A DNA stretch of 7,365 nucleotides, taken from Conexibacteraceae bacterium. GTDB lineage: Bacteria > Actinomycetota > Thermoleophilia > Solirubrobacterales > Solirubrobacteraceae. Positions 1-4,053 of this stretch are shown piece by piece. Each line of letters starts with the position of its first letter. Position 1 is the first letter of the stretch. The stretch spans positions 1-7,365 of the forward strand of contig WQWK01000094.1 of the NCBI GenBank assembly GCA_009785395.1, given 5' to 3'. The position numbers and the translations under genes were made by a program. The notes beneath the pieces are model-generated. The model had not been told where the DNA came from, did no database searches, and worked only from the letters and a program-made list of their open reading frames with translations.

Positions 1-633
<633 letters not shown>

Positions 634-640
634 AGGGGTG

Positions 641-646
641 ATGGTA
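641..646 (-). promoter_or_regulatory. Putative -10 box (TACCAT) of the ABC-F gene
   Basis: On the minus strand TACCAT is followed by CACCCCT and then the ATG at 633, a 7-nt gap. It matches the TAnnnT form of bacterial -10 elements, and transcription would begin at or next to the A of ATG. No purine-rich ribosome binding site is present. The -35 position falls at the left border of the palindromic element, and no good TTGACA match is seen. This is a prediction by eye. Confidence 0.5.
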
Positions 647-663
647 AGAGTCGGCGGCGGGTT

Positions 664-822
664 AGGGCTCACGACGGAATTAGTGGCAGGATTTGGCGAG
701 TGGCTGGGCGTGCCTGGGAAGACCGTTTCGCAAGGCAGGTACCGAGGTACCTGCCGCGAGACGGGCGCACCCAGGCGCGTCCAGACGCCGTCAAAGACGT
801 CAATAATTCCGTCGTGAGCCCT
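664..822. repeat. 159-bp palindromic (MITE-like) element filling the divergent spacer
   Basis: Seen: the outer 19 bp at 664-682 (AGGGCTCACGACGGAATTA) are perfectly repeated in inverted orientation at 804-822. Further inward, collinear pairs continue: 709-718 with 770-779 (9 of 10), 722-731 with 756-765 (8 of 10), and 734-743 with 746-755 (10 of 10, leaving 2 nt at the centre). Only the stretch 683-708 against 780-803 matches poorly. The whole segment is therefore one long imperfect dyad that could form a hairpin or cruciform. There is no credible coding frame. If the element is taken as 665-821, it is flanked by TTA on both sides (662-664 and 822-824), a possible but weak 3-bp target duplication. 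Inference: a MITE, a REP-like palindrome, or a native bidirectional control site. Its right end touches the -10 box of the hydrolase gene and would supply that promoter's -35 region. No transposase is in the window. Confidence 0.8.
734..755. repeat. Perfect central dyad of the palindromic element
   Basis: The sequence GGCAGGTACC, then GA, then GGTACCTGCC, gives two 10-nt arms around a 2-nt centre. As RNA or cruciform DNA it would need a 4-nt loop and a 9-bp stem. As duplex it would suit a homodimeric DNA-binding protein. It lies roughly midway between the two divergent start codons (633 and 835). It may be simply the centre of the larger element or an operator in its own right. Confidence 0.75.
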
Positions 823-828
823 TAGGAT
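823..828 (+). promoter_or_regulatory. Putative -10 box (TAGGAT) of the hydrolase gene
   Basis: TAGGAT is followed by CCCCGC and the ATG at 835, a 6-nt gap that fits a leaderless start. It directly follows the right end of the palindromic element. The contained AGGA at 824-827 lies 7 nt before the ATG and could instead act as a short Shine-Dalgarno sequence, so promoter and ribosome-site readings compete here. The -35 region would fall around 799-806 inside the element, with no strong consensus. Confidence 0.45.
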
Positions 829-834
829 CCCCGC

Positions 835-1740
835 ATGGCCGCATCCCACTATCCGCCGGTTCCGCCGCACGACTTCCCGCCCGCGCGCACGATCGTCGTT
901 CCCGATCGCGGCGAGTTCTTTCTGCGCGACTCCGGTCCCGCCGACGCCGCCGGGGAGCGGCCGGTCGTGTTCATGCTGCACGGCTGGGTCGCCAGCGCCG
1001 ACCTGAACTTCGGGAACCTGTACGAGGACGTGATCGCCGCCGGTTACCGCGTGGTCGCGATCGACCACCGCGGCCACGGCCGCGGCCTGCGAGCGCTCGT
1101 TCCCTTCCGCCTGATCGACTGCGCCGCCGACGCGGCGGCGGTGATTCGCGAGCTGGGGATCGGGCCGGCGATCATCTACGGCTACTCGATGGGCGGCGCG
1201 ATCGCACAGCTGATCGCCCGCGACCACTCCGACGTCGTATCCGGGCTGGTGCTGAGCGGCACCGCGCAGCACTGGAAGGAGGAGGAGCTCAGCCGCACCT
1301 GGAAGGCGATGCCGTTCGTCGGCATCGGTCTCTCGGTGGCGCCCGGGCGCGCCTGGAGCATGGCGCTGAAGCGGGTCGGCTTCAAGCCGGGCCCGCGGAT
1401 GGCCTGGGTGCATTCAGAGATGACCCGCCACCGCGCCCGTGACGTGGCCGAGGCCGGGCGCGAGCTCGGCCGCTTCGACTCACGGCCCTGGCTGCACCCG
1501 TACAGGTTCCCCACCTCCGTCGTGCTCACCAGCAACGACGATGCCGTGCCGCCCGCCAAGCAGCGGGAGCTGGCGGCCGCCCTGAAGGCGCAGGTGTTCG
1601 AGGCGCCGGTCCGGCACATGGAGGTGGCGACGACCGCGAGCGATGCCGCAGCGGGGCGCTACAACCCGGTGCTGATCGAGGCGCTCGCATACGTGCGCGC
1701 GGCCGATGCATCCGGTAGCCTTGCGGCCAGTGAGTCCTAA
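835..1740 (+). CDS. Alpha/beta hydrolase, 301 residues
   Basis: Seen: a complete frame with the ordered signs of the alpha/beta hydrolase fold. These are the oxyanion-side HGW at residues 49-51 after strand VVFML, DHRGHG at 77-82, the nucleophile elbow GYSMG at 116-120 (Ser118), a cap region at about 141-220 rich in Trp, Arg and Met, the acid in NDDAVPP (Asp235 or Asp236), and the catalytic His261 in RHME. No signal peptide is seen, so a cytoplasmic serine hydrolase (esterase, lipase or related) is expected. The substrate cannot be read from sequence. The next gene starts inside its last codons (11-nt overlap), and a fatty acyl-CoA reductase-like gene follows. A lipid ester or thioester substrate is therefore reasonable inference, no more. 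The ATG start is preceded at once by a TAGGAT box, and the spacer upstream is the palindromic element. The C-terminal tail after about residue 288 is Ala/Ser-rich, and its DNA holds the putative promoter of the next gene. Confidence 0.95.
   Translation: MAASHYPPVPPHDFPPARTIVVPDRGEFFLRDSGPADAAGERPVVFMLHGWVASADLNFGNLYEDVIAAGYRVVAIDHRGHGRGLRALVPFRLIDCAADAAAVIRELGIGPAIIYGYSMGGAIAQLIARDHSDVVSGLVLSGTAQHWKEEELSRTWKAMPFVGIGLSVAPGRAWSMALKRVGFKPGPRMAWVHSEMTRHRARDVAEAGRELGRFDSRPWLHPYRFPTSVVLTSNDDAVPPAKQRELAAALKAQVFEAPVRHMEVATTASDAAAGRYNPVLIEALAYVRAADASGSLAASES
1716..1721 (+). promoter_or_regulatory. Putative -10 box (TAGCCT) within the hydrolase 3' end
   Basis: TAGCCT is followed by TGCGGCCA and the GTG at 1730, an 8-nt gap. 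No Shine-Dalgarno is visible. It supports an internal leaderless start for the 92-residue protein. It also argues for GTG 1730 over the upstream in-frame ATG at 1706, which lies 5' of this box and would add eight residues before the basic N-region. Confidence 0.4.
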
Positions 1741-2034: not shown

Positions 2035-4053
2035 ATGGCCTACTTCGTAACCGGCTCCACCGGGTTCATCGGGAGCAGCCTGCTCCCGCTGTTGATCGAG
2101 CGCGCCGCCGGCGGAAGCGACGCGGATGCCGACATCTACATGCTCGTGCGCGAGAACTCGCTTCCGCGCCTCGAGCGCCGCATCGACTCCTGGACGGCGG
2201 GTTCGCCGGCGGCGCGCGCGCACGCGAAGCCGGTCACCGGCGATCTGCGCGAGCCGCGCCTCGGGCTCGACGAGTCCACGCTCGCGATGCTGCGCGAGCA
2301 GGACATCACCGGGTTCTTCCACCTCGCAGCCGTCTATGACATGACCGCCGGCGACGAGGTCAACGAGCTGGCGAACGTCGAGGGCACGGTGCACGCGCTC
2401 GACGTGGCCAATGCGATCGGCGCCCGGGTTTTCCACCACGTCTCCTCGATCGCGGTTGCGGGCACCTACCGCGGCGTCTTCACCGAGGACATGTTCGACG
2501 TCGGCCAGCCGCTGCCGCACCCGTATCACCGCACGAAGTTCGAGTCTGAGCGACTGGTGCGCGAGGAGGCGACGATGCCGTGGCGCGTGTACCGGCCGGC
2601 AATCGTCGTCGGTGATTCCAGGACCGGCCGGATCGACAAGATCGACGGCCCGTACTACTTCTTCCCGCTGCTCAAACAGGCGCATCGGTGGATTCCTGAT
2701 TGGTTGCCGCTGCTTGGCCCGGAGCTCGGCTACACGAACATCGTCCCGGTCGACTACGTCACGGCCGCACTCGACCACCTCGCCCACCAGCCGGGGCTCG
2801 ACGGACGCGCGTTCCACCTGACGGACCCGAACCCGTCGCGAGTGGTCGATGTGCTGAACGCCTTCGCGAAGGTCGCCGGGGCACCCCAGTTCGCGCTCGC
2901 AGTCGACCCGGGGCCGCTCGCCGCGATCCCGCGGACAGCCGCCGCCGCTGTGATGTCGCTGCCCGGCGCGCACGCGGCGCGCCGGGCACTGCTGGCCCAG
3001 GTCGGCATTCCCGACGAGATCGTCGAGTACATCGGCCTGACGCCCGAGTTCGAGACGGGCGCGACGCGGCAGGCGCTGGCGGGATCCGGCATCGAGGTGC
3101 CGCCGCTGTCGGCGTATGCGGCGAAGCTGTGGGACTACTGGCTGCGCCACCTCGACCCGGAACTCGCCCGCCACGCGAACGTCGCCAGCGCGGTCGCAGG
3201 CAAGACGGTCCTGATCACGGGTGCCTCGAGCGGGATCGGCCGCGCTTCGGCGCTGCTTCTGGCGCGGGCGGGCGCGACCGTGCTGCTGGTCGCCCGCGGC
3301 CTCGAGCAACTCGAGGAGACACGCGCCGAGATCGCTGAGGAGGGCGGCACCGCATATATCTACCCCGCGGACCTATCCGACCCCGAATCGGTTGACGCGC
3401 TGATCGAAAAGGTCCAGACCGAGCACCCCGAGATCGACGTGCTCGTCAACAACGCCGGACGCTCGATCCGGCGCTCGGTGGCGCTGTCGTATGACCGCTT
3501 TCACGACTTCGAGCGGACCATGCAGCTCAACTATCTCGGCACGATCAGGCTGATCATGGGCCTGCTGCCGGGGATGCGGGAGCGACGCTCGGGCCACATC
3601 ATCAACATCTCGTCGATCGGCGTTCAGACCAATCCGCCGCGCTTCTCCGCCTACGTGGCGTCCAAGTCGGCGCTCGACGCCTGGACGCGGGTCGTCAGCT
3701 CCGAGAGCATCGGTGACAACGTGCATTTCACGACCATCCACATGCCGCTGGTGAAGACGCCGATGATCGCCCCCACCAAGCTGTATGACCGCTTTCCCAC
3801 GATCTCGCCCGAGCAGGCCGCGGACCTGATCGCGGAGGCGATCCGCACGCGGCCGAAGACGATGGGCACCACGCTCGGCACGGTCGGCGAGGTCAGTTAC
3901 GCGCTGTTCCCGAAGCTGGTCGACCAGGTGCTGTCGACCGCTTACAAGGTCTTCCCCGACTCGGCCGCGGCGCGTGGCCAGCAGGAGCTGCCCGAACATA
4001 CCTCGCCACGGCAGGCGGCGTTTGCGCGGCTGATGCGCGGCGTTCACTGGTAG
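2035..4053 (+). CDS. Two-domain SDR protein, fatty acyl-CoA/aldehyde reductase-like (AcrA1/Maqu_2507 type), 672 residues
   Basis: Seen: two complete Rossmann oxidoreductases fused in one frame. The N-terminal extended SDR (about 1-375) has TGSTGFIG at 6-13, HVSSIA at 135-140 and the active-site pair Tyr164/Lys168 in YHRTK. It resembles NAD_binding_4/male-sterility reductases. The C-terminal classical SDR (about 388-645) has TGASSGIG at 395-402, DLSD at 446-449, NNAG at 472-475, Asn499, Ser526/Ser527, and Tyr540/Lys544 in YVASK. Both active sites look intact. Family knowledge: bacterial fatty acyl-CoA reductases of this architecture and size (about 650-670 residues) convert acyl-CoA or acyl-ACP through aldehyde to fatty alcohol with NADPH, one half doing each step. 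The exact substrate is inference. There is no signal peptide, so it is expected in the cytosol, perhaps membrane-associated. The upstream hydrolase and small membrane protein are probably co-transcribed. The ATG is chosen because the glycine-rich loop begins six residues in. The 3' end overlaps the convergent ppx-like gene by 10 nt. Confidence 0.92.
   Translation: MAYFVTGSTGFIGSSLLPLLIERAAGGSDADADIYMLVRENSLPRLERRIDSWTAGSPAARAHAKPVTGDLREPRLGLDESTLAMLREQDITGFFHLAAVYDMTAGDEVNELANVEGTVHALDVANAIGARVFHHVSSIAVAGTYRGVFTEDMFDVGQPLPHPYHRTKFESERLVREEATMPWRVYRPAIVVGDSRTGRIDKIDGPYYFFPLLKQAHRWIPDWLPLLGPELGYTNIVPVDYVTAALDHLAHQPGLDGRAFHLTDPNPSRVVDVLNAFAKVAGAPQFALAVDPGPLAAIPRTAAAAVMSLPGAHAARRALLAQVGIPDEIVEYIGLTPEFETGATRQALAGSGIEVPPLSAYAAKLWDYWLRHLDPELARHANVASAVAGKTVLITGASSGIGRASALLLARAGATVLLVARGLEQLEETRAEIAEEGGTAYIYPADLSDPESVDALIEKVQTEHPEIDVLVNNAGRSIRRSVALSYDRFHDFERTMQLNYLGTIRLIMGLLPGMRERRSGHIINISSIGVQTNPPRFSAYVASKSALDAWTRVVSSESIGDNVHFTTIHMPLVKTPMIAPTKLYDRFPTISPEQAADLIAEAIRTRPKTMGTTLGTVGEVSYALFPKLVDQVLSTAYKVFPDSAAARGQQELPEHTSPRQAAFARLMRGVHW

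Follow-up and report, generated by a model that had tools for sequence, protein, structure and literature searches.

The locus described here raises the question of what kind of element fills the spacer between two divergent genes in a 7,365-nucleotide stretch of DNA (the window): a dispersed mobile repeat, or a control element native to the two promoters. A preliminary description, made from the letters of the window, had reported a 159-bp palindrome with perfect 19-bp ends and a perfect 10-bp central dyad, not easily explained by chance, with possible TTA duplications on either side and no transposase present. It proposed a MITE or REP-like element, with a native dyad as the alternative, and suggested folding both strands, searching relatives for dispersed copies and looking for an empty orthologous site.

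The palindrome and its locus

Inverted-repeat searches of the window returned arms at 664-685/801-822 (22 nt, 95%), at 704-718/770-784 (15 nt, 87%) and, in the centre, at 734-743/746-755 (10 nt, 100%). The terminal 19 bp pair fully, and the longest perfect inverted arm in region 634-834 measures 19 nt, whereas the longest arm in 300 dinucleotide shuffles averaged 8.3 nt and never exceeded 14. The RNA fold of 655-830 reached -125.8 kcal/mol on the + strand (z -12.3) and -98.6 kcal/mol on the - strand (z -10.5), and on neither strand was any of 200 shuffles as good. The palindrome at 664-822 is therefore confirmed as real, with the ends and centre described for it. The + strand of the window is the one that gives the better-paired hairpin as RNA or single-stranded DNA (the "B" strand). 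Because the expected TTA is found on both sides, the preferred limits of the insertion are 665-821 (157 bp), accompanied by a duplication of 3 bp (Table 1). No Rfam family matched the window at E values up to 1, and a Pfam scan of seven products encoded in the window matched no transposase, in agreement with the preliminary description. One of these products, encoded at 2035-4053, is a 672-amino-acid protein whose N-terminal domain is of the NAD-binding/epimerase type and whose C-terminal domain is a short-chain dehydrogenase. An integron attC site was also considered for the palindrome and rejected: attC core sites read RYYYAAC...GTTRRRY, and by eye none is present at ends that read TTAGGGCTC...GAGCCCTTA.

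Table 1. Coordinates of the element, its parts and its neighbours in the window
Feature	Position	Strand	Basis
Mobile hairpin element, 157 bp	665..821	+	Inverted repeats, RNA folds, 52 aligned relatives, 22 orthologous spacers without the element
Left outer arm (terminal inverted repeat), GGGCTCACGACGGAATTA	665..682	+	Covaries with right outer arm; differs among subfamilies
Right outer arm (terminal inverted repeat)	804..821	+	Inverted-repeat search and covariation
Left conserved inner arm, GAGTGGCTGGGCGTG	698..712	+	Nearly invariant across the 27-copy alignment
Right conserved inner arm, CAGGCGCGTCCAGACGC	772..788	+	Kept G.U wobbles with left inner arm
Central hairpin	713..771	+	Variable sequence, near-constant length; inner-arm starts 76 nt apart in the window copy
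Putative target duplication TTA, left copy	662..664	.	Sequence and flank counts on 38 copies
Putative target duplication TTA, right copy	822..824	.	Sequence and flank counts; overlaps hydrolase -10-like box
ABC-F type ATPase gene (presumed), partial, left neighbour	1..633	-	PF00005
Alpha/beta hydrolase gene, right neighbour	835..1740	+	PF00561
Predicted -10-like box TACCAT of ABC-F gene, outside the element	641..646	-	ATGGTA (+) in 19 of 22 orthologous spacers
Predicted -10-like box TAGGAT of hydrolase gene, just outside the element	823..828	+	Orthologous spacers

The left neighbour matches PF00005, and we take it to be an ABC-F gene. With the hydrolase as query, a scan gave two close matches in MAGs (L001 and L002) and one distant locus, and in a search of 101 relatives of genome G001 the gene was detected in 33 of the genomes at E<=1e-60. 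Among the 30 loci listed for the hydrolase search, 22 had an adjoining ABC-F gene and a complete spacer, and the element was found in none of these 22 complete spacers. Six genomes (G001, G006, G007, G008, G012, and G027) have an empty site here and matches to the family elsewhere in the genome. The presence or absence of the element at this locus is shown by comparison; since it is absent from all 22 orthologs, we infer a gain rather than a loss. A bidirectional regulatory dyad native to the ABC-F/hydrolase promoter would fit a palindrome that fills the spacer, and the tight ancestral geometry had been offered as an argument for it. Such a dyad is contradicted by the orthologous spacers and by the copies carried elsewhere in other genomes, and we rejected it as scarcely credible.

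The preliminary description had also predicted an ancestral spacer of about 41 bp. Removal of 160 bp from the window leaves 41 bp between the start codons, and this length is borne out by the start-to-start spacers of 33 to 42 bp in five of the seven genomes whose hydrolase is most similar (33 bp in G025, 34 bp in G001 and G027, and 42 bp, including three codons, in G013 and G021). Of the other two, G014 has a longer spacer of unrelated sequence and G002 contains a different insertion (described below). At the position of the window TTA, G001, G025, G013, and G021 carry TTTAA. The element would have inserted at TTA in a tight divergent promoter, probably duplicating the TTA, and the insertion would have pushed apart two predicted -10-like boxes, which are very closely spaced in the orthologs with a short spacer. 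The further suggestion that the element rebuilt both promoters is not shown: both boxes lie outside the element, ATGGTA (read as the ABC-F -10-like box on the opposite strand) is present in 19 of the 22 orthologous spacers, and similar hydrolase-side boxes (TTTAAGAT, TAGGAT, TAGCAT) were seen by eye near the same place in many orthologs. An insertion is documented here in a divergent promoter whose length, in five of the seven closest relatives, is no more than 33 to 42 bp.

The same ABC-F/hydrolase spacer hosts an unrelated hairpin repeat in genome G002. There (L002 about 3022-3119, G002:C35), a different insertion of about 98 bp contains a 48-bp palindrome (GTTCTTCCTGCC...GGCAGGAAGAA). Sequences 78 to 88% identical to the palindrome region were found at three more places in G002 (C199, C38, and C140) and in none of six other genomes searched.

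A dispersed family with conserved inner arms

The search for dispersed copies was successful. With up to 8 candidates scored per genome, matches at E<=0.001 were obtained in 13 of the 101 relatives; G001, for instance, has three near-full-length matches at 70 to 72% identity and another, 81% identical, that spans 89 nt, plus shorter pieces. An exact pattern of both inner arms occurred in 5 of 399 genomes drawn across the class, all 5 among the 13 matching relatives, and this pattern is an insensitive one, with no hit in G006, G027, and G051, which do carry copies. No copies were detected in a plasmid collection (32-base chance matches only) or, for two patterns, in viral contigs. Across the relatives, the element is therefore neither single-copy nor confined to this locus, and the proposal of a MITE or REP-like element is supported by the dispersed copies in these genomes, which share their architecture and differ in their flanks, together with the empty orthologous sites. 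No description of the family was found in the open-access literature searched, and it is a new family of mobile hairpin elements in actinobacterial draft genomes.

A copy was accepted if it had both inner arms, with a total of no more than 5 mismatches, and if 72 to 82 nt separated the starts of the arms, a rule that leaves out truncated, contig-end, and more diverged copies. The resulting alignment contains 53 distinct copies, i.e., the window copy and 52 from ten other genomes (21 in G007, 11 in G006, 7 in G024, 4 in G001, 3 in G008, 2 in G012, and one each in G027, G037, G051, and G068). The inner-arm starts are 77 nt apart in 35 of the 53 copies and 76 to 81 nt apart in the other 18, and the elements measure about 157 to 161 bp; further copies have internal deletions of 18 and 21 nt. 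G007 holds several subfamilies with different ends and centres and common inner arms. Individual copies show some peculiarities. Two copies of G007, L147 (C68) and L111 (C141), have, by eye, the apical part of the central hairpin in the opposite orientation to that of their sister copies, as though the stretch enclosed by the stem arms were able to flip. Nine G006 copies (L205 to L213) form a subfamily with CTAG-type flanks and ends reading AGTGTCCTGCACC that has mainly the inner arms and the centre in common with the rest. A single copy, L042 (G068:C1 1062132-1062181), has its left inner arm in a tandem 28-bp duplication.

A consensus structure derived from 27 representative copies of the 53 comprises 50 pairs, 36 of which have changes on both sides, and 89.2% of cells in the 27-copy structure pair. 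Two-sided cells number 253, compared with 84 when partners are shuffled and 59 to 89 when the helix is slid, the slide control favouring the structure because the structure came from the same alignment. The outer arms and the centre differ among subfamilies yet covary, and in the outer helix (helix 1) 17 of 18 pairs have two-sided changes. The inner arms are nearly invariant, and they are not perfect complements: they pair through conserved G.U wobbles, kept in 24, 25, and 23 of the 27 copies at columns 38-129, 45-122, and 48-119, respectively, a conservation that is partly built in because the copies were collected by their inner arms. An element of this family has covarying outer arms, two conserved asymmetric inner arms with about 77 nt from start to start, and a centre that covaries and is nearly fixed in length.

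Trinucleotides flanking the copies are often TAA, TTA, or TGA, on the left as on the right. With boundaries set by hand, the two flanking trinucleotides are identical in 14 of 38 copies, compared with 7.1 expected with shuffled partners (p 0.001), and in 10 of 33 compared with 4.7 expected (p 0.005) when five G024 copies are removed; these counts carry the reader's choice, since the boundaries were drawn by hand and 15 of the 53 copies (the nine of the G006 subfamily, L016, L039, L042, L043, L047, and L116) were omitted. Automatic scoring of all 53 copies gave 10 identical flanks compared with 3.8 expected, which is not significant because the maximum in 2000 shuffles was 12. A 3-bp TNA target duplication is thus likely rather than proved. 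Three near-identical G024 copies (L190, L192, and L196) start, by eye, where a gene ends in a TAA stop codon, which is consistent with a TNA target.

Strand asymmetry and a proposed moving form

The strand equivalent to the + strand of the window folds better in all 53 copies, with a mean difference of 24 kcal/mol. This uniformity is partly built in because the inner arms were the collection criterion, so that a test outside the inner arms matters more. For this purpose, the two arms of each hairpin were aligned regardless of strand, and transition mismatches were counted according to whether they form G.U on this strand or on the other. Over all copies, G.U pairs on the + -equivalent strand prevailed by 116 to 42 in the outer helix, 183 to 15 in the core (the inner arms), and 73 to 18 in the centre. 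The counts for 19 subfamily consensuses or representatives were 33 to 5, 59 to 1, and 52 to 6, respectively; after two badly registered rows (G068 and G006b) were dropped, the remaining 17 gave 33 to 5, 56 to 0, and 39 to 4 (L116 belongs to no cluster). Outside the core the bias amounts to 72 to 9, with all 17 usable subfamilies leaning the same way, and to 36 to 8 when counted by distinct position (p 3e-5); as the subfamilies are related by descent, these mismatches cannot be treated as independent of one another.

Changes private to single copies behave differently from those between subfamilies. Scored against the consensus of their cluster, at positions that pair on either strand and whose partner is unchanged, they comprised 44 wobble-keeping and 36 pair-breaking changes (p 0.43; 37 copies in seven clusters), a count that omits 76 transversions as well as 41 changes at pairs in which both sides differ. 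By cluster, the largest excess was 16 to 8, two of the seven were reversed (12 to 14 and 6 to 8), and one stood at 2 to 3, so that private changes may carry a weak strand bias. Since the bias between subfamilies is strong and the private changes are without a clear one, the bias appears to belong mainly to the spreading lineages and not to the resident copies. The source lineages keep G.U on one strand, and the decay of inserted copies shows no clear strand bias, which points to a single-stranded moving form, and selection would act on this form in the moving lineage rather than on the copies in residence. The comparative wobble test thereby separates selection on the mobile form, seen between subfamilies, from the decay of inserted copies.

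The same data bear on the idea of a dispersed RNA useful to the host, such as a terminator, an mRNA stabiliser, or a regulatory RNA, whose hairpin strand would be selected in place. The very stable one-strand fold with its conserved G.U pairs would suit it, and MITEs are described as often transcribed and as influencing neighbouring genes (PMC3733652). Nevertheless, selection in place is at odds with the 44-to-36 split among private changes in resident copies, with the absence of the element from the locus in 22 of 22 orthologs, and with the orientation of the genes around 32 of the 53 copies, which shows no clear preference (++ 8, -- 14, divergent [-+] 6, convergent [+-] 4; p 0.29; neighbour-gene calls being approximate, from a GC3 score, and copies with <350 bp of flank left out). 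We consider a host RNA of this kind improbable.

Our main reading, to which we assign a probability of about 0.88, is that 665-821 is a copy of a non-autonomous mobile hairpin family that inserted at TTA. Within this reading, a trans-acting enzyme would move the element. The putative enzyme would recognise the inner arms together with the hairpin shape, and the form that it recognises would be single-stranded, ssDNA or RNA, and that of one strand only.

The mobilising enzyme, or a parent transposon, was sought in the draft genomes that bear copies, and a missing mobiliser is weak evidence because these genomes are drafts. PF13359 was found in none of 7 genomes. PF01609 was present in 5 of 6 and missing in G007, which holds 21 of the 53 copies, and element ends at PF01609 loci were not beyond chance (9 hits in 23 loci compared with 14 in one shuffled set). 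Y1_Tnp (PF01797) was found in 1 of 6 copy-bearing genomes. Nothing convincing emerged from a search of six or seven draft genomes for a parent transposon with the element ends, the inner arms, or G024-type ends, and no inner-arm pairs in the right order and orientation lay 100 to 5000 bp apart in six genomes at up to 2 mismatches. An apparent larger unit in G024, formed by two copies with a common right flank, was discarded, as the flank reads as the end of one convergent gene.

These results weigh on two further explanations. Duplications of the TNA type are linked to IS5/Harbinger, and the family could consist of ordinary MITEs moved as double-stranded DNA by an IS5/PIF-Harbinger-type DDE transposase, with the strand bias and the inner arms inherited from the asymmetric ends of a lost parent. 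Such an origin would need no single-strand step and would agree with the terminal inverted repeats with GG...CC ends (GGG-type) and with the 3-bp TNA duplications, above chance on the 38 hand-bounded copies. It is harder to reconcile with the enzyme search, which yielded no PF13359 and no PF01609 locus with these ends, with outer repeats that differ among subfamilies of one genome although they are the parts such an enzyme would be expected to bind, while the inner arms are conserved, and with a wobble bias that extends to the variable centre (39 to 4). We hold it to be possible and less than probable. Alternatively, a REPIN-like element could be moved as single-stranded DNA by a RAYT-kind Y1 (HUH) transposase. 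The strand bias fits single-strand transposition, and the two conserved arms at a fixed distance (about 77), separated by a spacer that retains its length and, through compensatory changes, its capacity to form a hairpin, are what would be expected. The scarcity of Y1_Tnp, the long outer repeats outside the conserved arms, and the 3-bp target duplications, which to our knowledge are not expected of Y1 enzymes, make this unlikely.

We tentatively suggest, as a more specific form of our main reading that may well prove wrong, that the family represents a distinct class of mobile hairpins in which one strand is moved as RNA or ssDNA. An unrecognised type of enzyme would read the inner arms and the hairpin and leave 3-bp TNA duplications, and selection for wobbles would operate only in the moving lineage and end on insertion. 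If true, such a class would join the single-strand logic of REPIN-like elements with MITE-like ends. The same wobble test could also show, for many orphan MITE or REP families, whether a single-stranded intermediate was used, without knowledge of the enzyme.

Comparison with known systems

MITEs of the ERIC or NEMIS kind are dispersed elements of 100 to 200 bp with terminal inverted repeats, a short target duplication, and a hairpin. Tourist-like MITEs, associated with IS5/PIF-Harbinger, have a TNA-type 3-bp duplication and GGG-type ends. The element studied here has the usual features of a MITE apart from a known parent and a proved duplication, with a length of 157 bp, 19-bp perfect ends, dispersed copies in relatives, empty sites, and no Pfam transposase among seven window products. 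It resembles ERIC and NEMIS, both named among MITEs in PMC3733652, in size range, terminal inverted repeats, hairpin, dispersal, and a short target duplication (likely here). It differs from them in its conserved asymmetric inner arms, in ends that vary among subfamilies within one genome, in its host group, and in that no parent transposon was found in the draft genomes searched. The likeness to Tourist-like MITEs lies in the likely duplication and the ends, whereas no matching transposase was found near family copies or with these ends.

GTAG- and CGTC-tagged REPs are likewise dispersed palindromic repeats, and the CGTC type also lacks a dedicated transposase; they are, however, much shorter, being units of 20 to 40 bp tagged at one end (PMC3733652). 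Five phyla are given there for CGTC repeats, and the word Actinobacteria is absent from the main text of the paper.

The closest likeness in plan is to REPINs. The GI REPINs of P. fluorescens have two conserved 16-mers with 71 bp between their first residues; the spacer retains its length and its capacity to form a hairpin, and compensatory changes are common (PMC3116915). The present family similarly has conserved arm pairs at a fixed distance and a variable hairpin spacer with compensatory changes, and is non-autonomous. It differs from REPINs in its size of about 158 bp, its long covarying outer repeats, its TNA-type flanks, and its conserved motif, the inner arms GAGTGGCTGGGCGTG and CAGGCGCGTCCAGACGC being by eye without the GTAG tag, and in that 5 of the 6 copy-bearing draft genomes tested are without a Y1/RAYT gene. 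The family is thus closest to REPINs in its plan, and its ends and likely target duplications resemble those of MITEs.
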